Shown here piece after piece: positions 41,724 to 54,950 of a stretch of 64,000 nt of DNA. How positions within the stretch are numbered: the first letter of the stretch is position 1; every line of letters begins with the position of its first letter. Both the position numbers and the translations under genes were made by a program. The stretch comes from Deltaproteobacteria bacterium (lineage in GTDB: Bacteria > Desulfobacterota > GWC2-55-46 > UBA9637). The stretch covers positions 1 to 64,000 of the forward strand of contig JAUYHF010000009.1 in the NCBI GenBank assembly GCA_030690165.1. The letters run 5' to 3'. The notes beneath the pieces are model-generated. The model was given only the letters and a program-made list of their open reading frames with translations. It searched no databases and was not told the DNA's origin.

Positions 41724-42914
41724 ATGAAATATATAATCCTCATAGGCGATGGGATGTCTGATGACCCCATCGAAGAATTAGGCGGCAGAACCCCTTTGCA
41801 AGCGGCTAAGACTCCCAACATGGACATGCTTGCACAGAAGGGTTCCATCGGCCTTGTGAAGAATGTGCCTGATAAATATCCGCCCGGCAGCGATGTGGCC
41901 ATCTTGAGCGTATTGGGTTATGACCCTGCAAAATATTATACAGGCAGGTCGCCGTTGGAGGCTGCAAGCATTGGCGTTGAATTGGCTACGGATGACCTTG
42001 CTGTGAGGTGTAATCTGGTTACATTGGACCAGAAGGACGGCAAGGTTTATATGGATGATTTCAGCGCAGGCCATATAACCACGGATGAAGCCAAAGAGAT
42101 TATTCATGATGTGGATAAGGAACTGGGCGGAAACGGATTCAGATTTTATCCGGGCGTGAGCTACCGGCATCTCATGGTATGGAGCGGCGGTCCGGACGGC
42201 CTTGAAACAACGCCGCCCCATGATATATCAGGCAAGGAGATAAAAGACTATCTGCCAAAAGGAAAAGGCTCTGATAAATTTATTCAGTTGATGAACGCAT
42301 CCCAGATGCTTCTCAAAGACCATCCTGCAAATGCCCGAAGGGAGGAAGACGGCCACAAGCCTGCAAACTCAATCTGGCTATGGGGACAGGGGAGGGCGCC
42401 TAAGCTGCCTACCCTGAAGCAAAGATTCGGCATTGAAGGCTCTATTATATCAGCAGTTGACTTGCTCAAAGGCCTCGGTATATATGCCGGATTGAAGGTA
42501 GTCAATGTGCCTGGCGCAACAGGGTATCTTGATACGAATTACAAGGGCAAGGCGGAATATGCGCTTAGAGAGCTTGAGACAAGGGATTTTGTCTGTGTGC
42601 ATGTAGAGGCGCCGGACGAGGCAGGCCATAACGGCGATTTGAAAGGCAAAATCAAGGCGATAGAGGATTTTGACAGAGAGGTTGTAGGCAGGGTGATTGA
42701 TGGAATGGACAGATTTAAGGAATACAGGATACTTGTGCTTCCCGACCATCCCACGCCTTTAATAAAGAAAACCCACACAAGAGACCCTGTGCCGTTTGTG
42801 CTTTATCCTTCCAATGATAATCACGGCAAGGCATATACAGAGGCAGAGGCAAAGGGAAGCGGTCTATTTATAGAGCAAGGACATAGGCTGATAGAGGGGC
42901 TTTTTAAGAGATGA
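41724..42914 (+). CDS. apgM: Cofactor-independent phosphoglycerate mutase, archaeal-type
   Basis: The enzyme interconverts 3- and 2-phosphoglycerate. From the ATG at 41724 it is 396 residues with the alkaline-phosphatase-superfamily metal site ([30 protein letters not shown]), the ChpB-like insertion, [19 protein letters not shown] and DHPTPL. It starts three bases after the thrC stop and overlaps the kelch gene by ATGA. In bacteria this gene often sits with homoserine/threonine genes and has been proposed as a homoserine kinase-like ThrB3; that alternative fits this neighbourhood. Confidence 0.9.
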
Positions 42915-43882
42915 GAATGTCAGAAAATTACGGCTATATGCGAAGCTGCTTTGTAAAAGCAATAATATGTTTTTTGCTCCTTGTCCTGCCCCTTTATCTG
43001 TATGCAGAAGTGGCGATATGGGAGACCAAAAAGCCTGCACTGAAGGAGAGGTCAGAAGTAGCCGCAGCTTCCATTGAGGGAAAGATTTATGTAATAGGCG
43101 GTTTCGGAAGATTTAGTGTAACCGATCTTCTGGAAGAGTATGACACCTCCACAGATACGTGGAAGAAAAAGGCGCCTTTGCCCACGTCTCTACATCACGC
43201 AGGGGCGGCTGAGGCTGGAGGAAAGATATATGTTATTGGCGGTTTTAAGAGGCTCTGGCCCTGGTCGCCGATGGATACTGTTTACGAATATAATCCGGCA
43301 AAAGACCAGTGGACTCAAAAGGCATCCATGCCGACTGCGCGAGGCGCATTAGCCTTGGGGGTTGTTAACAACAAGATATATGCCGTTGGCGGGGTGGGTA
43401 AAGATGGAGACACAAAGGCAAATGAGGTCTATGACCCCATGACCAATACATGGGAGATAAAACCCCCCATGCCCACTGCCCGGGATCACCTATCAATAGG
43501 GAGCGTTGAAGGAAAGATATACGCAATAGGGGGAAGGCTTGGGACATATGCAAAGAATTTGGCTATAAACGAGATGTATGACCCGAAAACAGATACATGG
43601 AAAAACCTCGCGCCCTTGCCGACACCGCGAAGCGGGATTGCTGCCTCTGTTTTACATGAAAGGATATATGTATTCGGAGGTGAGTCTTCGGAAGGGACAT
43701 TTAAGACGGTTGAGGGATATGATCCGAAAACAGATTCCTGAAAAACCATGCCTCCGATGCCCACTGCACGCCACGGCCTGAGTTCTGCAGTGGTCGGGAA
43801 GAAAATCTATGTAATAGGCGGCAGTAAAAGGCCCGGCGGGTCAGTAAGTAACATCAATGAGGTCTTTACCCCGTCTCCTTAG
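42911..43882 (+). pseudogene. Kelch-repeat protein interrupted by in-frame UGA
   Basis: A signal peptide (FVKAIICFLLLVLPLYLYAEVA) is followed by six kelch-type repeats with motifs such as KIYVIGGF and DTWKKKAPLPT, so a secreted beta-propeller is expected. At 43739-43741 a TGA replaces the conserved repeat tryptophan (TDS-stop-KTMPP, where other repeats have TDTWKN). The same frame continues for 46 more codons, completing the last blade (KKIYVIGGSKRPGG) and ending in TAG at 43880-43882. A single G-to-A change would explain it. As read, the product is 276 residues and lacks the last blade. It overlaps apgM by four bases. Confidence 0.85.
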
Positions 43883-44250
43883 GCAATTTTTAAGAAATGG
43901 GGACAGATTTATTTTTCCATAATTTTTGGGATACCATACTTAACTTTTGGCATTGATGACAAAAAGGCTTTTGAGGTCAACTCTTTACATTGGCAAAATA
44001 GATTTTAAAATGCTATAGACTTTATATGGCAATGCCGTGCGGTTTATCACCTATCACAGCAATAAAAAAGAATCTCCATTGAAAATTCGCCTCTGGTTTT
44101 ATCCTTGTAAAATGAAACCTCTTATTTTAAAATGCAAGCAGGCCGCATAATCTACCATGAGTTAGAATCTTTTGCCCTGAACGAAACAGGCTATGATAAT
44201 CTTAATATTTTATGGTTAAGGGGAGCAATCTAAAAACAGTAACAATAAAT
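43883..44250. other. Gene-free stretch
   Basis: About 370 AT-rich bases. The first part (AATGGGGACAGATTTATTTT, near 43898-43917) resembles sequences often found beside REP-associated/IS200-like transposases, but no coding remnant is recognisable. The rest holds no gene, strong hairpin or RNA gene that I can see. Confidence 0.35.
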
Positions 44251-44259
44251 AATATAGAT

Positions 44260-44293
44260 TTTGCACTAATTTGTGTTATAATACAGTGCGAAA
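44260..44293 (+). promoter_or_regulatory. VapBC promoter/operator
   Basis: An extended -10 (TGTTATAAT, 44274-44282) lies inside an imperfect inverted repeat, TTTGCACT (44260-44267) and AGTGCGAAA (44285-44293). No good -35 is present. The arrangement fits an autorepressed VapBC promoter, with the repeat as the antitoxin's binding site; that is inference. Confidence 0.5.
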
Positions 44294-44313
44294 TAACTAT
44301 AAAAGGAGTGTAT

Positions 44314-44511
44314 ATGCGAGCCACCATAACCATAGAAAAGGATATACTTGACAGCATTCTTATGGAAACACATGCAAAAAGTAAGACTTCTGCTGTAAAA
44401 ATAGTTATAGATGACTATTTGCGAAGAAAAAAAATAGAGAAGATAAAATCAATGAAAGGCAAACTTGAATTTGATAAATCTGCTGAAGAAATAAGGCATT
44501 ATGAACGGTGA
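44314..44511 (+). CDS. VapB-type antitoxin
   Basis: The 65-residue protein (MRATITIEKDILDSILMETH..., VIDDYLRRKKIEKIKSMKGK) has the ribbon-helix-helix start and toxin-binding tail of DUF2191/VapB antitoxins. AAAGGAGTGTAT before the ATG fixes this start; an upstream in-frame reading to 44212 crosses the promoter and is rejected. It overlaps VapC by 11 bases. Confidence 0.85.
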   Translation: MRATITIEKDILDSILMETHAKSKTSAVKIVIDDYLRRKKIEKIKSMKGKLEFDKSAEEIRHYER

Positions 44512-44896
44512 GAAGATCTTAATAGACACCTCCGTATGGATAGACTACTTTAAGTCTGCAAGCAACAATATTGTTGAACAGGTTGATGAAATTTTAACTA
44601 ATGCAGAGGTTTATGTTCCCAAATCTGTTATTGCTGAACTCATTCAAGGCGCAAAGTCAGAAAAAGAAATATCAGTGATTGAAGAATTTGTGAATGCCTT
44701 TCATCTCATTGACCAGTCAGAGGATACATGGTCAAAGGCAGGCAAACTATCCTATACAATGAAAAGAAAAGGCATCACAGCAAACCTCATGGACTGTTAT
44801 TTGGCTGTAATTGCACAAGAAAACAATTGCAAAATCCTTACACTTGACAGGCATTTTAAAGATATTAAAAAGTTTTTGAGGATTGAACTTGTATAA
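44501..44896 (+). CDS. VapC-type PIN-domain toxin
   Basis: The 131-residue PIN ribonuclease has the acidic residues expected: D in LIDTSVWIDYF, E in VIAELIQG, D in LMDCYLAVIA and D in LTLDRHF. It would cleave RNA, commonly tRNA, and be neutralised by the overlapping VapB. Its TAA overlaps an ATG of a short downstream frame. Confidence 0.92.
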   Translation: MNGEKILIDTSVWIDYFKSASNNIVEQVDEILTNAEVYVPKSVIAELIQGAKSEKEISVIEEFVNAFHLIDQSEDTWSKAGKLSYTMKRKGITANLMDCYLAVIAQENNCKILTLDRHFKDIKKFLRIELV

Positions 44897-45007
44897 TGAG
44901 CAAGAAGGATGGGGAATTACAGCAGTTGGAAAATAAAATTAAGATGGATCTGATATTGCAAGACCTGAGCCCCTCACCGCTGTAAAGGAACTTTATGAGA
45001 AAACATA
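44896..45007 (+). pseudogene. Frameshifted small gene remnant
   Basis: A frame starting on the VapC stop (TAATG) reads 29 codons (MSKKDGELQQLENKIKM...) to a TAA. A one-base shift lets the sequence continue as LTAVKELYEKT before another stop. It looks like a small, recently broken gene, family not recognised. Confidence 0.4.
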
Positions 45008-45240
45008 GGAGTTCAATAGCACGGGCAGCATCTTACAAAGACATTGGTAAGTTTTGGGATACCCACTATTTATCTGACTTCTGGGATAAAACTAAAGAGA
45101 CATTGTTTGAAGTAGATATTGAACAGAAATTACTTAATTACGCGGTTGACAGGACACTTTCAGAAAAGATTCAGCCCCTTGCACAAAAATGTGGAGTTAC
45201 TGCTGGCTGTAGCACGAAATATCACTGTATTGCCTGTTAA
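44995..45240 (+). CDS. CopG/BrnA-like antitoxin, degraded C-terminus
   Basis: The 81-residue frame has YKDIGKFWDTHYLSDFWDKT and a FEVDIEQKLLNYAVDR segment, typical of antitoxins with the FWDTHDxxDYWD-type start. These normally end in a ribbon-helix-helix tail, but here the end reads CGVTAGCSTKYHCIAC, which looks frameshifted. No toxin gene follows. It is probably a remnant of a lost toxin-antitoxin pair. Confidence 0.55.
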   Translation: MRKHRSSIARAASYKDIGKFWDTHYLSDFWDKTKETLFEVDIEQKLLNYAVDRTLSEKIQPLAQKCGVTAGCSTKYHCIAC

Positions 45241-45288
45241 AGAACTATTAAAGATTGCAAAGTAATTTTAAAGAAAATTGGATTGCGT

Positions 45289-45630
45289 ATGTCTGCAAAC
45301 TCTGTTATCAATATAAGAAAATCCGATATAGAGATAGAATTCTATCGGAGTTCAGGTCCCGGCGGTCAGCACAAGAATAAAACTGCCACTGCTGTCCGCA
45401 TAAGGCATATCCCGACAGGGATTATTGCGCAGGCTTCGGAGAGACGCTCACAGCATCTAAACAGGGAAATAGCAATGGAGAGGCTTAAAAAGGCCATTGC
45501 AAAGATGTTATTTAAACCTAAAAAACGCATTTCTGTTAAGGTTTCTGAATCGCAGAAGAGAAAACGGCTTGAGCAAAAGAAGAAAGTAGCAAAGAAAAAA
45601 GTATTAAGAAGGGTCTCAGAGGAGGGATAG
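45289..45630 (+). CDS. GGQ-domain peptide chain release factor-like protein
   Basis: The protein (113 residues from ATG 45289) is a lone RF-1 catalytic domain with the GGQ tripeptide in RSSGPGGQHKNKTATAV and a basic C-terminal tail (KKRISVKVSESQKRKRLEQKKKVAKKK). It lacks codon-recognition domains, like ArfB/YaeJ, which rescues stalled ribosomes by hydrolysing peptidyl-tRNA. A TTG at 45283 is an alternative start. It ends four bases before the next gene. Confidence 0.85.
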   Translation: MSANSVINIRKSDIEIEFYRSSGPGGQHKNKTATAVRIRHIPTGIIAQASERRSQHLNREIAMERLKKAIAKMLFKPKKRISVKVSESQKRKRLEQKKKVAKKKVLRRVSEEG

Positions 45631-45633
45631 GAT

Positions 45634-46212
45634 ATGAACAAAAAAGTGGCCAGAAAAGGTCTAATGAGGTTGATTTTGTTTTTACTGCTTACTGCCTACT
45701 GTTTACTTACCACTGGACTTATGGGTTGCGGCAAAAAAGAAAAAGAGACTGCAAAGGAAGATGCCCAAGTCTCAGTAGTTGAAAAAAAGACAGAGGTTAC
45801 GTCCTCGGTCGATAGCGCATCTCCTGAATTTACAGCAGATACATACAAGGGTGTGCTTGTCGTATCGTCAGTAGAAGGCGTTGATTGGCAAAAAGGTGTA
45901 ATAACTGCTGTGGGCAGAGGTTTACCGCCAAAAGATATTACAAACCCGGCACAGGCAAGGCTACTTGCAATGCGTGCGGCAAAAGTGGAAGGCTATAAAA
46001 ATTTATTGGAGATAATCCTGAAGATGAAAACGGCTCCTGACAGGGGCATGAAAGAATATCTTGACGAAAAACATATAGAAATAACCAGAATAGAAGGCTT
46101 TGTTAAAGGCGCAATGGTTGTTAAAGAAGAATATAAGAATGACGGCAGCGCAGAGGTTACATTGGAAGTTCCTATAGCCGGTGGAAGCGGGCTGGTAGCG
46201 GAGCTTAAATAA
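45634..46212 (+). CDS. LPP20-like lipoprotein
   Basis: The 192-residue protein has a lipoprotein signal with lipobox LMGC (C32), a charged linker, and an LPP20-type domain (ITAVGRGLPPKDITNPAQAR, LLAMRAAKVEGYKNLLEII). Membrane attachment is expected; the function of the family is unclear. Part of its signal peptide is encoded by a 7-bp tandem repeat. The ATG lies four bases after the previous stop. Confidence 0.8.
   Translation: MNKKVARKGLMRLILFLLLTAYCLLTTGLMGCGKKEKETAKEDAQVSVVEKKTEVTSSVDSASPEFTADTYKGVLVVSSVEGVDWQKGVITAVGRGLPPKDITNPAQARLLAMRAAKVEGYKNLLEIILKMKTAPDRGMKEYLDEKHIEITRIEGFVKGAMVVKEEYKNDGSAEVTLEVPIAGGSGLVAELK
45682..45709. repeat. Heptamer tandem repeat in lipoprotein signal peptide
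   Basis: Units TTACTGC, TTACTGC, CTACTGT, TTACTTA, translated as LLTAYCLLT within the hydrophobic signal segment. Confidence 0.8.
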
Positions 46213-46236
46213 AATATGTGATTAGACTTTTAGCCT

Positions 46237-47253
46237 ATGTCCTTTTTAAACCTCATTACCCATTACTCATTACCTATTACTATCTTCTTTGCATATCTCC
46301 TTGATTTAATACTCGGCGACCCGAGATGGCTTCCGCATCCTGTGAGATGGATTGGCAGATATATTTCATTCCTTGAAGATAAAATAAGAAGATTTGCAAC
46401 CCCCCCAGCCCCCCCTTTAATAAAGGGGGGGGGAAGAGAGGAAAAGATTGGCGGGGTATTTCTTTTTATCATTATTGTTGGAACAGTGTTTGGTGCGGCA
46501 TGGTTTCTCTTGTATCTTGCCTATCAGCTATCAGCTATCAGCTATCAGCTATTAGCCGTCTTTATTGCGTATGTCTCGCTTTCCATCAAATCATTGAAGG
46601 ATGAGGCATTGTCAGTTGCATACGCAGTGGAAAATATTTCCATAGAAGAGGCCAGAAAAAGGTTAAAGAATATTGTAGGAAGGGATACTGAAAATCTTTA
46701 TAAAGGCGAGATATACCGCGCTGTTACAGAAACTGTTGCAGAGAATACATCAGACGGCATTATTGCCCCGCTCTTTTATCTTGCCCTTGGCGGGCCAGCG
46801 CTGGCTCTGGCATATAAGGCGGTCAATACACTTGATTCAATGGTCGGCTATAAAAATGAGAGATATAAAAACCTTGGCTGGTTTTCTGCCAGGATGGATG
46901 ATATTGCCAATTTCATACCTGCAAGGATTACAGCCATCTTGATGGTTTTTGCCTCTTTTATCCTTAGATTCAACTGGAGAAATTCTTTAAAGATAATATG
47001 GAGAGATGCAAGAAAACATCCAAGCCCCAACGCAGGCTTTCCTGAGGCTGCTGTTGCAGGCGCGCTGGGGTTACAGCTTGGCGGGACGAATTATTATTTT
47101 GGCGCGCCGCACCACAGGCCGCTTATCGGAGCATTTAGAAGTCAAAATGGATTTACCATAAAGACAGTTAAAGATGCTGTCAGAATCACATATCTTACCG
47201 CATTTTTAGGCGCTATTTTGGCAGTATTGGCTGCAAAACTTGCTTTGTCTTGA
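46237..47253 (+). CDS. cbiB: Adenosylcobinamide-phosphate synthase
   Basis: CbiB/CobD attaches the aminopropanol arm to adenosylcobyric acid in B12 synthesis. The 338-residue membrane protein has LLDLILGDPRWLPHPVRWIG, ETVAENTSDGIIAPLFYLAL, NTLDSMVGYKNERYKNLGWF and SPNAGFPEAAVAGALG. Three repeat tracts are translated within it: at the N-terminus (46254-46281), after the first conserved block (46398-46435, PPAPPLIKGGG) and in a membrane segment (46521-46555, YQLSAISYQLL). No cobalamin riboswitch is visible upstream. Its product would serve the B12-binding radical SAM enzyme downstream in the window. Confidence 0.93.
   Translation: MSFLNLITHYSLPITIFFAYLLDLILGDPRWLPHPVRWIGRYISFLEDKIRRFATPPAPPLIKGGGREEKIGGVFLFIIIVGTVFGAAWFLLYLAYQLSAISYQLLAVFIAYVSLSIKSLKDEALSVAYAVENISIEEARKRLKNIVGRDTENLYKGEIYRAVTETVAENTSDGIIAPLFYLALGGPALALAYKAVNTLDSMVGYKNERYKNLGWFSARMDDIANFIPARITAILMVFASFILRFNWRNSLKIIWRDARKHPSPNAGFPEAAVAGALGLQLGGTNYYFGAPHHRPLIGAFRSQNGFTIKTVKDAVRITYLTAFLGAILAVLAAKLALS
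46254..46281. repeat. Heptamer tandem repeat at cbiB start
   Basis: Units CATTACC, CATTACT, CATTACC, TATTACT, translated as LITHYSLPIT at the N-terminus. Confidence 0.85.
46398..46435. repeat. Palindromic insert in cbiB
   Basis: A C-rich arm and a G-rich arm around CTTTAATAAAG form a hairpin closely related to the inner palindromes at 11336-11410. It is translated in frame as TPPAPPLIKGGG. Confidence 0.75.
46521..46555. repeat. Heptamer tandem repeat inside cbiB
   Basis: Four perfect CTATCAG units and one CTATTAG, translated as a 7-residue-period segment (YQLSAIS, YQLLAV). Confidence 0.9.
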
Positions 47254-47278
47254 CAAACAAATATGATTTTGTTAATAT
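47250..47278 (+). promoter_or_regulatory. Sigma70-type promoter for multihaem cytochrome
   Basis: TTGACA (47250-47255), 17-base spacer, TAATAT (47273-47278). It overlaps the cbiB stop and places the start near 47285, leaving about 95 bases of leader that includes a heptamer tract. Confidence 0.7.
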
Positions 47279-47330
47279 CATAGCCATATCAGGCGGACTG
47301 ATGGGCAAGATGCGGCAGGTTTATCTTATT

Positions 47331-47358
47331 TAACTTTTGACTGTTGACTCTTAACTTT
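47331..47358. repeat. Heptamer tandem repeat in cytochrome leader
   Basis: Units TAACTTT, TGACTGT, TGACTCT, TAACTTT in the untranslated leader of the multihaem cytochrome gene. Confidence 0.75.
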
Positions 47359-47381
47359 ACGTAAAAGGGGGTATTGTAGAC

Positions 47382-49787
47382 ATGAAAAGGTTTTTACTCC
47401 TTTCCGCTCTATCTCTGGTATTTGCCATAACAGCCTATCTTTATCCCTGGGCCGGTTTAAAAATCATCCCCGATGCCTTTGCCACAGGCGGCGCATTTAT
47501 CAACACCAAGCACGGCGGCGGCACAACAGATGGTCTTACACCCTGCGCCGGAGGCGTGAACAGGGGATTGGGGGCAGACTATGAGGGGCTCACTGCTGAC
47601 CCTTGCAATACCCTTCCTGGCACAAACCCTTACAATAGCACCAACCCCGAGGCAGGCACATACGGCTCCGGCGAATGTCTCCACTGCCATGAACCTATGG
47701 GAAGCTTTGGCGGGAGCGAGCCGCACCCAAATACCTCTTCAACACCTGCTGATACAGCAGGTCCGAGTCCCTATCTTCTCTTTAAGGGAGATTATAACTC
47801 CGCAACAACAAATGGGGCAAGCGCCGAACTTTGCTGGTATTGTCATCAAAATCAAGTCAATATAAACAACTCTAACAGCCCCCGCAGTATGGGCAGATGG
47901 AGTTTCTATCAGGGTAAGACGATTTTCCAGGCATCCAGCCATTTTCTTCCGCCTTTCGACCCACAATTCGCAACAGGCCAATTTTACTGGCCTGGCACTA
48001 CTGGCGACCCTGTCCAAATATGGCCGAGGCAAAATAGGTCTGGCCTCCCAACTGGTAACAAGGGAAGCTGTCTTAACTGCCATACCCCGCACGGAATAAA
48101 GGCGGCAAATGCGGCCAATGCTTATGACACAACAGCCCCTGACGGAACCGGCGGCGTGCCTGCCACCAAGCAGATTCCCTGCGCTGACCCGAATATACTG
48201 AATAATCCGATAGGGTGCAACCCTTCTGTAATGTCTGATTACATGATACCCCGAAAGCTTATTGCATGGGAGGAAAACCTCTGTGAGGCGTGTCATAGCG
48301 GACCAGGCCCATCAACAAAGGATATCCGGGAAGAGATAAACAAGAGACATCCGGTCGGCGGCGCCGGTAGTGGTCATCCTATTGATGATACTGCCCTATC
48401 AGGCCGTCATACGGTAAGAGAGTCTATCCCTCTTACCTTAACAGAGGGTAGTCGTCTTGTTACTGAAAAACATGTAGAATGTTACGATTGCCATAATCCT
48501 CATGCAGTAAAACTCGGCGGGAATGATCCCCTTCTCTGGGACGATGGGGGCAGGTTAAAGGGGATAAGATATATTACGCTCGGCGGCGGCACGCTCGCGC
48601 TCCCCGGCACGATATGCGACCCTGTAAGTTCCACTAACCCTGCGGAATGCACGACTTTCAACGGTTTCACTAAGACCTCTGCGCAGCCGTTCATCTATGA
48701 ACTCTGTTTCAAGTGTCATGGGGATCCTTACGCAAGTTTTGTTCCGGACCGGCCTTGCAGCCCCGCATGTCCTGATAATAATCCACTCAGAACCACAGTT
48801 GCGCAGAACGGCTGCACAACGAGAACGCCTGCGTCATCATGCACTGACGGCAGCAATAAAAGACTGGAATTTAATCCACTCACACAGGCCAATGACGGCT
48901 TTGGCGGCACCCTTGCGGGCAACAGGGCATATCATCCTGTGGCCGTGCCAGGCAGGAATACATCCAGAGCCCTTTGCTTACAGCTTAAGACTAAGCAAAA
49001 CGGCAGCGTTGTAGGCGGTTTTGCCGGTCTTGATTGCACAAGCGCTGCGGCAGCTACAGCTTCTTTATCAAATTTAACCATCTACTGTACCGATTGCCAC
49101 AATAACGACGCTGCAGGCGCTGGGAATTTTACCGGACTAACCGCAACCCCCACTTATCCCGGCCCTGTTACTGAATCGAGCCTCAGGTCAACAGATAAGG
49201 CCTCCGCGTTCAATCTCCCTGCTACTCCGGTTGGTCCGCATGGGTCTGTAAATCCAAGGATCCTTCGCGCACAATATAACACAGGCTTCACCTGTCCTGA
49301 CGGCACCGGCGCCCTCGGCAGCAAATGCACCCAAGGTTTTAACGCTGCAAATTTTGCCCTCTGCTTTCAATGTCATAATATTGACCCATTTGTCAGGACT
49401 GATGGCACAGTGTTAGACCCAGTAACCAACACCCGGATCGTAGCAACAAATTTCTTCAATGCGTCTCTGGGAAGTCTTCATGAATGGCATCTTATTCGGA
49501 AAACTAACAGCTCTTGCATCAATTGTCACTACAATATCCATTCAAATTATGAACAGGCGCATACTCAACTTGGTACGGCTACAGGAGGAGTCGATCTTCC
49601 TCCGGATGGGGACACACATCTTATAAATTTTTCACCGGCGGTAACTGCTAATGGTTTAGCAAAACCTGCCTGGTATTATCGCGGCGGGAATATGGGATGT
49701 ACTGTAACATGCCATGGCATAAAAATGGATGGTGCTGGAATAGGAGGAGGAGGCAGGAATGCAATATATGTATTTAACCCTTCTTAA
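47382..49787 (+). CDS. Secreted multihaem c-type cytochrome (ten haem motifs)
   Basis: The 801-residue protein has a signal peptide (cleavage near AFA-TGG, residue 34). It has nine CxxCH motifs, with the first cysteine at 99, 151, 230, 301, 367, 442, 569, 661 and 712, plus one CxxxCH (C773, C777, H778). The haems are spread through long low-complexity, Cys- and Asn-rich loops, with no recognised catalytic domain. It probably carries electrons in the periplasm or outside the cell. It has its own promoter. Its stop directly abuts the convergent FGE-like gene with no intervening base. Confidence 0.9.
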   Translation: MKRFLLLSALSLVFAITAYLYPWAGLKIIPDAFATGGAFINTKHGGGTTDGLTPCAGGVNRGLGADYEGLTADPCNTLPGTNPYNSTNPEAGTYGSGECLHCHEPMGSFGGSEPHPNTSSTPADTAGPSPYLLFKGDYNSATTNGASAELCWYCHQNQVNINNSNSPRSMGRWSFYQGKTIFQASSHFLPPFDPQFATGQFYWPGTTGDPVQIWPRQNRSGLPTGNKGSCLNCHTPHGIKAANAANAYDTTAPDGTGGVPATKQIPCADPNILNNPIGCNPSVMSDYMIPRKLIAWEENLCEACHSGPGPSTKDIREEINKRHPVGGAGSGHPIDDTALSGRHTVRESIPLTLTEGSRLVTEKHVECYDCHNPHAVKLGGNDPLLWDDGGRLKGIRYITLGGGTLALPGTICDPVSSTNPAECTTFNGFTKTSAQPFIYELCFKCHGDPYASFVPDRPCSPACPDNNPLRTTVAQNGCTTRTPASSCTDGSNKRLEFNPLTQANDGFGGTLAGNRAYHPVAVPGRNTSRALCLQLKTKQNGSVVGGFAGLDCTSAAAATASLSNLTIYCTDCHNNDAAGAGNFTGLTATPTYPGPVTESSLRSTDKASAFNLPATPVGPHGSVNPRILRAQYNTGFTCPDGTGALGSKCTQGFNAANFALCFQCHNIDPFVRTDGTVLDPVTNTRIVATNFFNASLGSLHEWHLIRKTNSSCINCHYNIHSNYEQAHTQLGTATGGVDLPPDGDTHLINFSPAVTANGLAKPAWYYRGGNMGCTVTCHGIKMDGAGIGGGGRNAIYVFNPS

Positions 49788-50612
49788 TTAAAACCTGGCG
49801 CACCTGAATCCGCCGTCATCTCCACCCATGTCCGGCCAGTAAAAGTTTCTGTATGATGACCGTGCAAAGAGCCTGATGAGAGAATTATAATGCCCTTTGA
49901 AATTCCCGACGCCCCCGCGTAGTATCCTGAATTTTTTGCCAAAATCTCCATTCTTCATCTTACTTCCTGGATATGGTTCATACCATGCATCAACCCATTC
50001 CATCACATTTCCACCCATGTCATACACCCCATAGTAGCTTTTGTCTGTTTCGTATGAGCCAACCGGAACGGTATCTCCTGTGGTGAGGTTGGCCTTATTC
50101 TCATCATATTCCTTTCCCCATGGGTATCTATTTCCCAATGGTCCCCGGGCAGCCTTTTCCCACTCTTCCTCTGTTGGAAGGCGCTTCCCGGCCCATTTGC
50201 AGTAAGCCCTGGCATCAAACCATGTTACATTATTTACAGGATGCTTCCCTCTTCCATCAGGATAGACACCCTTTTCCCAATCCCAGGAAGGCGGGAGGGG
50301 ATACCCTGTTGCGTAAGTAAATATCTTGTAGCGCTCATTCGTTACCTCGTATTTATCTATGTAAAAACCAGGCAGGAATATATTTCTCATAGGTCTTTCA
50401 TTTCCATAGAAAGCCCCTCCCCGGGATCCAACATCCTTTCCAAGACCCTCGGTGTCAATATCCTCGCTTCCCATAATAAACCGGCCTGAGGGTATGAACA
50501 CCATCCCTTCAATAGGCAGCGCCTTTTCCCCTGTGCAGGAAAAGAGAAAAAGCGCTGCGGCTATGTAAAGATATTTCTTAATGAAATATGACAAGCTTGT
50601 TTTTCCCTTCAA
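49788..50612 (-). CDS. FGE/SUMF1-domain lipoprotein
   Basis: The 274-residue protein has a lipoprotein signal (ALFLFSC) and a formylglycine-generating-enzyme fold: MVFIPSGRFIMGSED, FYIDKYEVTNERYKIF, WFDARAYCKWAGKRLPTEEEWEKAARG, YDMGGNVMEWV and GGDDGGFRCARF. Many members lack sulfatase-activating activity and have other roles (for example EgtB-like, or as binding domains). The active-site Cys pair of true FGE is not evident. It is the last gene of the polyketide-type operon and overlaps the short KS-like gene by 35 bases. Confidence 0.85.
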   Translation of the reverse strand: MKGKTSLSYFIKKYLYIAAALFLFSCTGEKALPIEGMVFIPSGRFIMGSEDIDTEGLGKDVGSRGGAFYGNERPMRNIFLPGFYIDKYEVTNERYKIFTYATGYPLPPSWDWEKGVYPDGRGKHPVNNVTWFDARAYCKWAGKRLPTEEEWEKAARGPLGNRYPWGKEYDENKANLTTGDTVPVGSYETDKSYYGVYDMGGNVMEWVDAWYEPYPGSKMKNGDFGKKFRILRGGVGNFKGHYNSLIRLFARSSYRNFYWPDMGGDDGGFRCARF

Positions 50613-51222
50613 TAAATCCTTCCACCATACTGAAAGACTCTTCTATGGTCTTTATCATTACCTCTCCCTGCAAGAGAGTATCATTATATCCAATAACCTC
50701 TCTTAAGCAAACACCTTCTTCCTTCTTCTTTTGCGCTTCATCAGGGGTGAGGCTCTCCATTATAATAACCATTGCCCCATTCTCAGACACGCCGCCTGCA
50801 ATAACCGCATTCATTACGCCTCTATGCAGCAATTCAAAGCCATATCCTACTGCCTTCAGGAATGAAGAGGCCCCGCTAACAATGGTAAGAGCCTCGCCCT
50901 TTATGCCAAAGGCAATGGTCGCCTGGGCTGTTATGGCATTGTGACTTGTGTAAGGAAAAAGCAGAGGGCTCGCGCCAATGGGACCCTCTGATACAAGGCC
51001 TTTAAAAAATTCCGCCTTGCATTTGTCTATGGCATTATCTATGCCAAAGACAATACCGGTGGTGTCTAATTCCAAATTTCTAATTTGTTTTAGCGCCGCA
51101 GATAGTGCGGCCAGAGTTAGTTCCTCAGCCCTGAGCACAGTCTTAACTGGCTTCGGTGTTTCTATATGGCTCGGGCCTTCCCTGCATATACCCATGCCTG
51201 TTATGAAAATCCTTGTGTCCAT
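50578..51222 (-). CDS. Short ketosynthase-like protein, catalytic Cys absent
   Basis: The 214-residue protein matches only the N-terminal half of beta-ketoacyl synthases, similar in size to the single-domain KS-like proteins (PF13723 type) in aryl-polyene clusters. The position of the active-site Cys reads IVSGASS, with Ala. It could be a chain-length or partner subunit. It lies between the radical SAM and SUMF1-like genes. A heptamer tract (51066-51086) is translated near residue 50. Confidence 0.7.
   Translation of the reverse strand: MDTRIFITGMGICREGPSHIETPKPVKTVLRAEELTLAALSAALKQIRNLELDTTGIVFGIDNAIDKCKAEFFKGLVSEGPIGASPLLFPYTSHNAITAQATIAFGIKGEALTIVSGASSFLKAVGYGFELLHRGVMNAVIAGGVSENGAMVIIMESLTPDEAQKKKEEGVCLREVIGYNDTLLQGEVMIKTIEESFSMVEGFIEGKNKLVIFH
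51066..51086. repeat. Heptamer tract in short KS-like gene
   Basis: Three units (CTAATTC, CAAATTT, CTAATTT) translated as IRNLELD. Short and imperfect, included because it fits the window-wide pattern. Confidence 0.5.
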
Positions 51223-51232
51223 AAAATTAGTT

Positions 51233-52681
51233 TTAAGCGGCCTTTACCCTTCCTGCCTTCTTTAAAATAAAAAATATCATGACATCCCAGCCTGCTATTA
51301 AAAGCCTTTTAATCCCTGCCGGGTCTTTGAGCATGGCGATAAATAAAGAAAGGGTCTTTTGCGGCCTCCAGTAATATTTTGCAATGGCCTTTTTGTATTC
51401 CCAGTCTAATTCCTTTTCAGTCCATCCATGCGGGATAAAAACGAAATTCATGGCATTCATCTTTTTCCAATCAGGGGAAAACTGCCCATATTTGTGGGCG
51501 TCCTTATATATCTCTGTGCCTGGGAAAGGTGTAAATTTGCTGATATTTATGATGTCAAAAGGCAGCCTCTTTGCAAGGTCAATGGTCTCTTTAATGGTCT
51601 CGCGGGTCTCAAGGGGATGTCCCATCATAAAAAGCCCCTTTACTTTTATCCCTGCCTCATGTGTCCAGCGCACGGCTTTTTCTATTTCCTCCAACGTAAT
51701 CCCCTTTGCCACAAGGTCAAGTATCTTCTGCGAGCCGCTCTCTATGCCGTATGCAATCTCCCAGCACTCTGCCTTTTTCATCAGGGCAAGGGTTTCAGGG
51801 GTTACTGTATTCACCCTTGCGTCGCATGTCCAGCTTATGTTCAATTTTTTAGCCATAATACTTTCGCAGATTGTTTTAATCCTTGATCCCGATGCGGCAA
51901 AGAGATCATCATAAAATATAATGTGCCTGATTCCATATCTTTCCACAAGATGCCCTATCATCTTTATAACATAATCTGCGCTGTAGCATCTGTAGCGGTT
52001 CCCGAATACAGACCTGTCGCAGAATATGCACTGGAAAGGACATCCCCTGGATGTAACCATGGACGCCACAGGGAGTTCCTTATAGCTCATAAGCGGCGGC
52101 TGATAACGTTCCGGGAAACCTTCCAGCAGATCCCATGCAGGTATTGGCAGGGTATCCAGATTTTCTATATACGGCCTTTTTGGCGCAAGCCTTGCCGCGC
52201 CGTCATGCCTGTAAACCAGCCCCTTTACCCCCCCAAAATCTTTGGTGTGAGGGTTAACAGCCTCAAGGAATTCAATAATGGTCTCTTCCCCCTCGCCGAT
52301 TATCCCTGCGTCAAATTGCGGAAAATCCTGGATTGTCTCAATGGGAAGGGCAGTAACATGAGGTCCGCCGATAAGGGTTATAATATTTTTATCATATTCC
52401 TTTATCTCTTTTGCCAGAAACGCAGCATTGAGAAAAGAAATTGTGGATGCCCTGAACCCCACTACTTTAGGCCGCTCCTTTATGATATAGGCAATGGTCT
52501 GCTTAAGGGTAAGCTGCAGCGCGCCTGCCTCCAATATCTTAGGCTCATACCCCTTCTCCCTTAAAACCGAGGCAAGACAGCACAGCCCAAAGGAAGGCAT
52601 TGTATTCTCCAGTGTCTTTGGCAGGGGAACAGATGTGTCCCATGCAGCATAGGGTGGATTGACTAAAACTATTTTTGACAT
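51233..52681 (-). CDS. B12-binding-domain radical SAM enzyme
   Basis: The 482-residue protein has an N-terminal cobalamin-binding-type domain (LVNPPYAAWDTSVPLP..., LIGGPHVTALP, IGEGEETIIEFL) and a radical SAM core with the iron-sulfur cysteines C214, C218, C221 in GCPFQCIFC. A C-terminal domain follows, as in BchE/HpnJ-like enzymes. It probably performs a methylation, cyclisation or C-C rearrangement on a lipid or polyketide intermediate. It lies between two KS-type genes in the same operon, which makes it the most distinctive tailoring candidate. Confidence 0.88.
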   Translation of the reverse strand: MSKIVLVNPPYAAWDTSVPLPKTLENTMPSFGLCCLASVLREKGYEPKILEAGALQLTLKQTIAYIIKERPKVVGFRASTISFLNAAFLAKEIKEYDKNIITLIGGPHVTALPIETIQDFPQFDAGIIGEGEETIIEFLEAVNPHTKDFGGVKGLVYRHDGAARLAPKRPYIENLDTLPIPAWDLLEGFPERYQPPLMSYKELPVASMVTSRGCPFQCIFCDRSVFGNRYRCYSADYVIKMIGHLVERYGIRHIIFYDDLFAASGSRIKTICESIMAKKLNISWTCDARVNTVTPETLALMKKAECWEIAYGIESGSQKILDLVAKGITLEEIEKAVRWTHEAGIKVKGLFMMGHPLETRETIKETIDLAKRLPFDIINISKFTPFPGTEIYKDAHKYGQFSPDWKKMNAMNFVFIPHGWTEKELDWEYKKAIAKYYWRPQKTLSLFIAMLKDPAGIKRLLIAGWDVMIFFILKKAGRVKAA

Positions 52682-52692
52682 TTTATTATCAG

Positions 52693-53850
52693 TTAATCCG
52701 TTGCGCTGAAAAGGAGGGCTGCGTTTTGCCCTCCGAAGCCGGCGGACAGAGAGATGGCTGTTTTTATATCGACCTTTCTTGCTGTATTCGGCACATAGTC
52801 AAGGTCACATTCAGGGTCTTTTTCCTGATAGTTTATTGTGGGAGGTATTGCGCCATTTTTGATGGCAAGGAGACACGTTGCCGCCTCTATTGCGCCGCCT
52901 GCGCCAAAGCTGTGGCCTATCATGGATTTTATTGAGCTTACCGGTATTTCGTATGCGGGATTGCCGAATGCGAGCTTTATCGCCTTTGTCTCCATTGCAT
53001 CGTTATATATTGTGCCTGTGCCGTGGGCGTTTATATAATCAGGCTTTGATATGCCTGCCTCTTTTAATGCCGCTTTAATGGCCGCTGCCAGTCCCCGGCC
53101 CTCTTTGTCAGGCCCTGTCATGTGATGGGCATCTGCCCTTGAGGCATAGCCTATTATCCTGCCGTAAACCAGCGCACCTCTTTTTTTTGCGGCGACAGCC
53201 TCTTCCAGAACAAGAAATGCAGCGCCCTCGCCAAGCGCTAAGCCATCCCTGTTTTTGTCAAACGGCCTTACCTTGGTCTTTGTCAGCGCTTTAAGATTAT
53301 TAAAACCGCAGAATGCAAACTCGCTTAATGTGTCGGATCCGCCTGCTACCATTACATCGGCCTTTCCCCAGAGGATATTTCTGTATGCCATACCAAGGGC
53401 ATCTGTGCCTGATGCGCAGGCAGTGGACACAGTAAGGACATGGCCTTTTATGCCATATTTATCTGTAAGATATCTTTCGCCGGAATAGAAGTGATATTCT
53501 TCAGGAAGAGTGGGTTTATTTTCTTTCCATGCCTTTTGGCCTGCAAGGATACCTCCGAGGACTGTGCCGATGTATAATCCAAATCCCCCTGCGCCCGCAT
53601 CAACCCCTGCATCGGCAAGCGCCTCCTTAAATGCAAAATCAAGAAAATTTATCCATCGTTCCGTCCCTGTATGCTCAAACCTCTTTACCTCTCCTGCTAT
53701 TTTGCATTCATATCTCCCGGTATCAAAAGACTTAACCTCTTTTATGGCATCCTTTCCCTTCAGCAACTCCTTCCAGAACATTTCAAGCCCATCCCCTGAT
53801 TCAAGGGGAGATATGATACCGATGCCTGTTACAACGACTTGTCTGCTCAT
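52693..53850 (-). CDS. Beta-ketoacyl-ACP synthase II-type (active)
   Basis: The 385-residue KS has the catalytic Cys145 in VSTACASGTDAL and both histidines (NAHGTGTIYND and IGHSFGAGGAIEA). It should extend an acyl-ACP chain by decarboxylative condensation with malonyl-ACP. It overlaps the methyltransferase by ATGA (53847-53850). A second KS, a KS-like partner and a short KS-like protein occur in the same operon, more than ordinary fatty acid synthesis needs. Confidence 0.92.
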   Translation of the reverse strand: MSRQVVVTGIGIISPLESGDGLEMFWKELLKGKDAIKEVKSFDTGRYECKIAGEVKRFEHTGTERWINFLDFAFKEALADAGVDAGAGGFGLYIGTVLGGILAGQKAWKENKPTLPEEYHFYSGERYLTDKYGIKGHVLTVSTACASGTDALGMAYRNILWGKADVMVAGGSDTLSEFAFCGFNNLKALTKTKVRPFDKNRDGLALGEGAAFLVLEEAVAAKKRGALVYGRIIGYASRADAHHMTGPDKEGRGLAAAIKAALKEAGISKPDYINAHGTGTIYNDAMETKAIKLAFGNPAYEIPVSSIKSMIGHSFGAGGAIEAATCLLAIKNGAIPPTINYQEKDPECDLDYVPNTARKVDIKTAISLSAGFGGQNAALLFSATD

Positions 53851-54950
53851 GGCCTCTTAAACACCCATACAGCAGAGTCAAGCATATAAAAATTATTAAC
53901 CACCGCGTTTAACCCGACAAACCCTATATCCTTAGCCATCCTGACAGTAGAGTCTATATCGCGGAAGCCGTGCCATCCATTGCATACGCTCTCTGCGAAA
54001 TCGTGTATATATATCCCCTTCCTTACCCATTCATTCTGTATGTGCCTCTTTTGCCTGTCAGGATACCCCCACGCAACAATACCCGCAGCGCCGCCGGGCT
54101 TCAAAATCCTGTATATGTCTTTATATACATATTCGCGCAGGGGTTCCGGGATATAAGGGTCTCCACATGAGAAAAACACCCTATCAAAAGTCATGTCTTT
54201 AAACGGGAGTTTTGACCCAAAGCCGTTCCATCTGCGCGCATCAACCCAGCTTATCTTTCCGGAATTCTCTCCGAGCCTTGACATCACGAACTGCCTCATT
54301 GCGCCGGTAAAGTCTATTGCAGTTATTCCGGCATTCGGGAAATCCCTGCATATGGCTTTAAGCCCGTGGCCTGTCCCGTAGCAGAGGTCCAGCATTTGAC
54401 AGTCCTCTGTTTTATCCGATGCCATAGCCTTTAAGAGTATATCCCTTGCTATGCTGAACTCATAATTTCCGAGGAACCTGTCCCATATATCCTCCATGCC
54501 TTTGGCAAAATTATAAAGATGATCGCCGCCGCGCAGAAACTCGCCTGCATAGTCAATGCACCTGCCGAAAAACTCCACCTCGCTGTAAAAACCCTCTTTT
54601 AGGGTCTTTCTCTCAATTAGAGAAAGCGCCGGCAGAGGTTTTACATCATCGTTGTATATGCAGCTATGCGCCGGGTTCTGCGAAACATACCCGCACTCTT
54701 CAAGAAAATCCAGCAGGATAAACAACATCCTCTTCCTTGCACTGTCTCCTGTCTTGTATTTAAGCTGTCCCGCGGCCCTATCGCAGAATTCTTCTCTTGT
54801 AAAACTCTTCATCTCTTTTATGACAGAGATGAGCCCTTCCTGTTCCGCAAATTCAACAAGCCTTAATGTAAATGCCCTCGGGACAATAAACTGCCTTAAT
54901 ATGTCAATCCCTGTCTTTATGTCTTCAAAGACTGCTGTCATAATCCTCAC
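53847..54950 (-). CDS. SAM-dependent class I methyltransferase
   Basis: The 367-residue protein has a winged-helix-like N-terminal region and a SAM-binding domain with motif I MLDLCYGTGHGLKAI, then FPNAGITAIDFTGAM and the ILKPGGAAGIVAWG post-motif. This layout is like O- or C-methyltransferases of secondary metabolism. The family is clear but the substrate is not; position between two KS-type genes suggests methylation of a polyketide/lipid intermediate. An internal ATG (MTAVFE) is an alternative start. Confidence 0.85.
   Translation of the reverse strand: MRIMTAVFEDIKTGIDILRQFIVPRAFTLRLVEFAEQEGLISVIKEMKSFTREEFCDRAAGQLKYKTGDSARKRMLFILLDFLEECGYVSQNPAHSCIYNDDVKPLPALSLIERKTLKEGFYSEVEFFGRCIDYAGEFLRGGDHLYNFAKGMEDIWDRFLGNYEFSIARDILLKAMASDKTEDCQMLDLCYGTGHGLKAICRDFPNAGITAIDFTGAMRQFVMSRLGENSGKISWVDARRWNGFGSKLPFKDMTFDRVFFSCGDPYIPEPLREYVYKDIYRILKPGGAAGIVAWGYPDRQKRHIQNEWVRKGIYIHDFAESVCNGWHGFRDIDSTVRMAKDIGFVGLNAVVNNFYMLDSAVWVFKRP

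Follow-up and report, generated by a model that had tools for sequence, protein, structure and literature searches.

The predicted undecaheme electron transfer (Uet) gene set, which is said to go back to an original paper by Eddie et al. in 2022, stands among the described systems closest to the locus studied here. In the available text of a source on this set, which is predicted in Tenderiales and Gallionella, it comprises the tetrahaem protein UetA, the PPIase UetB, the barrel protein UetC, the trihaem proteins UetDEG, the NHL proteins UetHI and UetJ, the latter being counted with 11 and with 12 motifs, CX3CH included (PMC10734462). The other systems considered are OmcE of Geobacter (PDB 7tfs), a tetrahaem and polymeric cytochrome in which, as in OmcS, a His of one subunit ligates a haem of the next according to the accessible part of the report (PMC9473688), the ten-haem proteins OmcA/MtrC and MtrA/DmsE of extracellular electron transfer, and MmcA of Methanosarcina acetivorans, an archaeal, OTR-related heptahaem protein whose CXXXCH motif was haem-loaded by mass spectrometry in a host using archaeal Ccm, as stated in the sections available (PMC11024163).

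The window, i.e., the whole stretch of 64,000 nucleotides of DNA that was analysed, contains a gene for a decahaem cytochrome, hereafter the window protein. It resembles UetJ as a doubled-CXXCH multihaem protein, OmcE and the PDB entry 9yuq in its N-terminal TKH motif and doubled-haem pattern, OmcA/MtrC and MtrA/DmsE in its ten haems and its supposed role, and MmcA in its CxxxCH, for which no homology is claimed. The protein is genuine and well conserved and its general kind is known, but it belongs to a branch of which, as of a family-wide terminal CxxxCH, no description was found in the available portions of the literature searched.

Gene, haem motifs and candidate ligands

The features of the gene are as follows.

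47250..47278, + strand: sigma-70-like promoter candidate TTGACA-17-TAATAT, 10/12 match, TG before the second hexamer
47363..47371, + strand: Shine-Dalgarno-like AAAAGGGGG, read from the sequence, ending 10 nt before the ATG
47382..49787, + strand: decahaem cytochrome gene, 801 aa plus stop
47382..47483, + strand: probable Sec signal peptide read by eye, residues 1-34, cleavage between AFA and TGG
47511..47513, + strand: H44, invariant N-terminal His in the TKH motif, candidate axial ligand
47676..47690, + strand: haem 1 motif CLHCH
47697..47699, + strand: M106, at an alignment position with His in most core sequences
47832..47846, + strand: haem 2 motif CWYCH
48069..48083, + strand: haem 3 motif CLNCH
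48282..48296, + strand: haem 4 motif CEACH
48480..48494, + strand: haem 5 motif CYDCH
48705..48719, + strand: haem 6 motif CFKCH
49086..49100, + strand: haem 7 motif CTDCH
49362..49376, + strand: haem 8 motif CFQCH
49479..49490, + strand: H700 and H703 (HxxH), H703 being a candidate distal ligand of the CxxxCH haem
49515..49529, + strand: haem 9 motif CINCH
49698..49715, + strand: haem 10 motif CTVTCH (CxxxCH), family signature

The initial annotation had described a secreted cytochrome with ten haem motifs, a description borne out by the signal-peptide-like start and by the nine CxxCH motifs (residues 99, 151, 230, 301, 367, 442, 569, 661 and 712) and the terminal CTVTCH (residue 773) found within 801 aa. 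The residues flanking the predicted cleavage site, A34 and T35, were invariant in 10/10 sequences of alignment A2, and the mature protein, composed of 12% Gly, 10% Thr and 7.8% Asn, would contain by chance a mean of 0.05 and a maximum of 2 CxxCH (2000 shuffles). Neither a CxxCK nor a CX5-17CH beyond the motifs listed above was present in the window protein, and no second ORF with at least three CxxCH was found within the 64 kb window. As for the near-consensus promoter proposed earlier, the TTGACA-17-TAATAT site does exist, but promoter-type sites in the region occur at chance level (3 found vs 3.4 expected in shuffles), the candidate being plausibly placed rather than significant.

The protein had also been said to contain no known domain, which requires correction, since generic doubled-CXXCH models passed their cut-offs (PF09699, 48.9 bits vs 20.6; PF14522, 28.6 vs 24.8; TIGR01905, 33.7 vs 25.2). 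The proposed distinction from the MtrA/DmsE type was in turn upheld by a score of 28.8 bits against an NCBIfam cut-off of 192.2 for DmsE, the NCBIfam model for OmcA/MtrC gave no window-protein match at E<=10, and the window protein differs from both types in its haem motif spacings of 51-127 residues.

All ten haem motifs were invariant across A1, the 15-sequence alignment of the window protein and 14 named relatives, as were eleven His residues outside the motifs (44, 187, 237, 332, 343, 364, 374, 518, 620, 700 and 703); with H720 near-invariant in the same alignment, there would thus be enough distal ligands for ten haems. Position 106 is occupied by His in 8/10 of the core sequences covering it (the core is defined below), by Met in the window protein and its own-genome paralogue, and by Arg in four Myxococcota relatives, and the presence of M106 instead of His might change the ligation or the potential of one haem. 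The window protein contains 34 Cys, 14 of which lie outside the haem motifs as seven neighbouring pairs (55/75, 267/279, 412/423, 459/463, 478/487, 532/552 and 638/649). Six pairs were all-or-none across 14 core sequences (55/75 being present in 5 and 532/552 in 10), and the pair 478/487 broke this pattern in one of the 14. As the Cys residues of the pairs nearly always occur or vanish together, we infer that they would form disulfides.

Relatives and the terminal CxxxCH motif

The window gene lies in a genome of 2.2 Mb in 70 contigs, where contig C19 carries another copy, 63% identical and likewise with 9+1 motifs, and the two were sisters in the tree with 100/100 support. Among 59 genomes (this one and 58 relatives), 13 gave a match to the window protein at E<=1e-3, a count that includes partial and C-terminally different matches, and one of them (G019) had 9 matching places. 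Of the 21 class homologues read out, the 14 with CxxxCH were designated "core" and the 7 without it "outer"; since this split was made after seeing the distribution of the motif, its presence in the core is by definition, and the independent count is that of the family ORFs given below. In the named genomes, 80 of 114 confirmed loci were kept after retrieval with six peptide patterns, and these relatives span many phyla, as judged from record titles, with 22-33% identity in the best segment. Two pattern matches in viral contigs did not encode a relative.

The homologue search with masked haem motifs that had been suggested earlier was run by using a profile built from ten core proteins, with reversed-sequence controls. 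This profile found five Myxococcota decahaem relatives at E 5e-21 to 9e-28, along with many of the dodecahaem type at E 4e-15 to 5e-5, as compared with 0.012 for the best reversed control. With the masked window sequence alone, the class relatives scored strongly and the dodecahaem ones weakly (best 1.6e-4 vs 0.85 reversed). Homology beyond the haem motifs was thus shown at the profile level, where the relatives stayed significant, and as judged from these alignments the window protein is a family member and not an orphan. Several class homologues are built differently: L144 and L145 (G001, G019) have an N-terminal TKHGG module with a long tail, LamG-like by eye, and L141, L142, L143, L146 and L147 (G005, G012, G020, G003) have this module with a C-terminal part resembling the one found in the 11-haem proteins of the class. 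The family looks like a mosaic, in which the TKHGG module seen at the N-terminus of the window protein is combined with other C-terminal parts.

The unusual last motif singled out by the initial annotation was confirmed as CTVTCH. In a survey of 249 ORFs matching a family profile, 93 scored at least 150 and reached the C-terminus, both copies of the window's genome being among them, and 91 of these 93 had a terminal CxxxCH, usually C-x-L-x-C-H-G with its first Cys at a median of 17 residues from the end. None of the six retrieval peptides contained CxxxCH. Of 101 other multihaem ORFs at the same loci (score <60), which served as control, only 7 had the motif, amounting to 18 CxxxCH vs 696 CxxCH. 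The terminal CxxxCH is a family signature.

H703 is the best candidate, and the probable one, for the distal ligand of the CxxxCH haem, because it is kept together with the motif (60/60 dodecahaem, 14/14 core and 15/15 A1 sequences, sets that overlap) and mostly lost where the His of the motif is gone (11 of 15 aligned proteins; L141, L119b, L065 and L066 retain a His at 703). The argument is limited to H703, since H700, missing in the 7 outer proteins in a first alignment, was kept in 15/15 motif-less proteins in a second. The notion of two independent joint losses of CxxxCH and H703 was dropped, as the 11-haem proteins and five of the outer proteins (L141, L142, L143, L146 and L147) resemble each other in the C-terminal part, so that one loss event plus a domain swap is possible.

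These distributions also bear on whether CTVTCH could be a haem-free relic in a nine-haem protein. Such a relic would suit the absence of CxxxCH from 7/21 class homologues and from the 11-haem proteins of the class, as well as the four of 15 motif-less proteins still having His at 703; it is at odds, however, with the 91/93 family ORFs and their C-x-L-x-C-H-G preference, with the loss of H703 in the other 11 and its retention in all motif-bearing sets, and with the haem-loaded CXXXCH of MmcA as given in the accessible text (PMC11024163), and we regard it as highly improbable. By the same analogy with MmcA, covalent attachment at CxxxCH is plausible, and the motif probably carries an ordinary covalent haem, which leaves the earlier statement that it needs an altered attachment unproven. 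The host genome has ResB-type genes in three places (C49, C6 and C19) and gave no match for CcmE, which points to System II maturation. A dedicated haem lyase for CxxxCH is possible without being required, since archaeal Ccm is at work in the MmcA case and ResB here. The ResB-type gene at G000:C19:10978-11688, which lies at a distance of approximately 10 kb from the second copy of the cytochrome gene, is a candidate special haem lyase.

An OmcE-like module in the fuller relatives

Against the PDB, profile A1 matched the OmcE filament subunit 7tfs at E 3e-38 and 9yuq, named only "putative multiheme cytochrome c", at E 4e-32. The matches cover profile positions 10-203, where the 11+1 relatives have their N-terminal module of four haems, to which both structures are homologous. 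Nitrite reductases (1e-4 to 3e-2) followed behind OmcA (1e-7) and OmcS (8e-5), these weaker matches being probably haem-driven. The best E was 0.3 in a search with the window protein alone and 0.097 with the core-only profile A2, and the OmcE homology, as traced through these profiles, reaches the window protein through intermediates only.

A structure model of the window protein from the 15-sequence alignment was unusable (pLDDT 35), and that of L050, a compact 9+1 relative, from the 71-sequence alignment A4 reached pLDDT 72 and pTM 0.75. With the L050 model, Foldseek returned nothing at E<=0.001, and VIA-align, run against 12 chains, nothing at Z>=2, which says little, because loop-rich proteins are poorly found: in the available text on OmcS and OmcE, DALI and Foldseek returned only these proteins themselves and close homologues (PMC9473688). 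The missing L050 match does not point to a new fold.

OmcE-like tetrahaem ORFs, 44 in total, were present in 42/80 named loci, and a profile of 18 of them matched 7tfs at 3e-53. In the 48 loci with at least 5.5 kb of upstream sequence, such an ORF occurred in 38, of which 37 have 11-12 CxxCH and one (L099) has 8 in an apparently split ORF; the other ten comprise four loci with 11 CxxCH, five with a 9+1 decahaem and one with a 7-haem protein. The comparison of 38/42 with 0/5 decahaem loci for an OmcE-like neighbour gave p = 8e-5, with kinship uncorrected and the 7-haem row excluded. Among the loci listed, the fuller relatives (11 CxxCH plus CxxxCH) lie near tetrahaem, NHL, barrel-like (approximately 650-710 aa), tri- or pentahaem and PPIase genes, a set read by eye in which Pfam confirmed NHL and PPIase, two scanned barrel-like proteins giving no Pfam match. 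As motif count and gene set match the Uet list in the published text available, we refer to these relatives as UetJ-like, a name based on those two features and not on the UetJ sequence.

In 60 dodecahaem ORFs, sixteen non-motif His are conserved (two of them in 59 and 57 of the 60) for twelve haems, more than would be needed for distal ligands inside one subunit. OmcE-like modules were also observed in ORFs of 740-905 aa and in many of about 250-400 aa (G034:C8, G051:C173, G029 and others), G029 having at least 14 module matches, and the class relatives hold large unstudied OmcE-like paralogue families.

The dodecahaem UetJ-like relatives share the ten-haem core and the terminal CxxxCH with the window protein, which in A1 retains, for the last ten haems, all the motifs and almost all the conserved His, and has two haem motifs where the fuller family has four; the identity of the two lost haems is ambiguous, because the haem pairs look alike. 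The window protein differs from UetJ in having 9+1 motifs vs the 11-12 counted in the available source, two N-terminal haems fewer, in lying outside any Uet gene set, and in a genome that gave no OmcE-like (tetrahaem) match at E<=1e-10. It appears to be a divergent, shortened homologue of the UetJ-like family with the ten-haem core kept. Of the 59 genomes, 13 have a window-protein match and 34 an OmcE-like module (E<=1e-10), 12 have neither and no genome has both, an exclusivity with p of 1e-6 per genome and 0.07 when collapsed to genera; in two genera, different species carry either the one or the other. Since p is only 0.07 at the genus level, the claim that this either/or pattern proves replacement was toned down. 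Eight regions were opened in seven module-bearing genomes: five of them (G002, G004, G007, G027 and G034) encode an 11-haem protein without CxxxCH, clustered with NHL-like and tetra-, hexa- or heptahaem genes, and with FGE and barrel-like genes near in G002, G004 and G007, the G016 copy being cut by the contig end and the G010 region holding a tetrahaem gene only.

Being distantly related to OmcE by way of the dodecahaem family, the window protein could be imagined to self-polymerise into a nanowire, in which H44 or a surplus His would ligate a haem of the next subunit, as in the filaments described in the available text on OmcS and OmcE. The invariant N-terminal His, the excess of conserved His over haems, the low haem density and the multiple copies per genome (9 matching places in G019) would all be compatible with such a wire. 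The window protein lacks, however, two of the four haems in the OmcE-like module, OmcE subunits being tetrahaem and the window protein decahaem; nothing significant was matched in the PDB by the core-only profile (best E 0.097), and M106 stands where 8/10 core sequences keep His. Considering these differences, we judge polymerisation of the window protein unlikely.

A reading that we put forward tentatively, and hold for possible more than for probable, is that the UetJ-like dodecahaem protein serves as an adaptor between an OmcE-like filament and an outer-membrane conduit, the window branch being an "unplugged", wire-free descendant that works alone. The N-terminal OmcE-like module would dock to the filament made by the neighbouring tetrahaem gene, and the eight-haem part ending in CxxxCH would face the conduit; in the decahaem branch, whose genomes lack an OmcE-like gene, only two haems of the module would be left. 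The gene content is consistent with this proposal.

Gene neighbourhood and proposed role

Downstream of the window cytochrome gene lies the following feature.

49788..50612, - strand: FGE-sulfatase-type (PF03781) gene, lipoprotein-like by eye, convergent, abutting the stop codon of the cytochrome gene

The encoded protein shares 47-48% identity with FGE proteins from the electron-transfer clusters that sister genomes carry, and 35-43% with those behind L135 and L138. It is a possible partner of the cytochrome, and as the genome has 9 PF03781 matches, a chance adjacency is possible as well. The other neighbour is a cobD-like gene (by eye); no conduit gene adjoins the cytochrome gene, and no NHL, PPIase or barrel gene was seen beside it among the ORFs of 42000-54500, read by eye. 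In 7/11 core loci (the window and L131-L140), a propeller gene (L132, L133, L134, L137 and L140) or an FGE-type gene (L135 and L138) adjoins the cytochrome gene on the same strand and overlaps it by longest-ORF starts. Neither type of neighbour was identified for L131 (the own-genome paralogue), L136 and L139, the cytochrome gene of L136 being followed by that for a protein of 1317 aa, for which no Pfam model exceeded its cut-off. Within the class, genes for FGE-sulfatase-type proteins are found repeatedly in the vicinity of multihaem cytochrome genes (window 49788-50612, L135, L138, L177, L178 and L182). Elsewhere in the same genome, the cluster G000:C51:66200-79000 (L148) encodes, according to Pfam, two doubled-CXXCH proteins with 26 and 15 haems and one pentahaem protein, along with NHL-like, parvulin-like and barrel-like ORFs by eye, and is a possible outer-membrane conduit of the organism.

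The reading we favour is that the window protein is probably a Sec-exported decahaem c-type cytochrome that takes part in extracellular electron transfer by itself, as a carrier at the cell surface or in secreted form. Its covalent haems, each with two His ligands, would form a chain, with the CxxxCH carrying the terminal haem and H703 as its probable distal ligand; electrons would enter from an outer-membrane conduit, for which the 26-haem/15-haem cluster on contig C51 is a candidate, and would be passed on to a mineral or to a partner cell; the flow could also be reversed. It is in these terms that we infer the haem loading, the bis-His ligation, the export and location, the conduit partner, the flow direction and the acceptor.

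That the window protein might instead be a multihaem enzyme or a periplasmic electron store seems rather improbable. Profile A1 weakly resembles nitrite reductases of the NrfA and octahaem types (E 1e-4 to 3e-2), a similarity that looks haem-driven, since the scores for OmcA (1e-7) and OmcS (8e-5) are equal or better. One haem could be unusual owing to the Met at 106, and the FGE-type neighbour would agree with an enzyme or store, but the CxxCK motif is absent, open haems fit poorly with more invariant His than haems, and the gene sets around the relatives match the Uet pathway, which is predicted to be extracellular. We retain the extracellular carrier as the preferred reading.

With these results, what had seemed an orphan cytochrome becomes a member of a conserved family across many phyla, and its conserved CxxxCH offers a natural test of how System II handles non-standard haem motifs. 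The predicted Uet gene set is linked to the solved OmcE nanowire fold, a link not found in the available portions of the literature covered. An OmcE-like module fused to an eight-haem protein and encoded near an OmcE-like gene provides a concrete candidate for the connection of cytochrome filaments to outer-membrane conduits.
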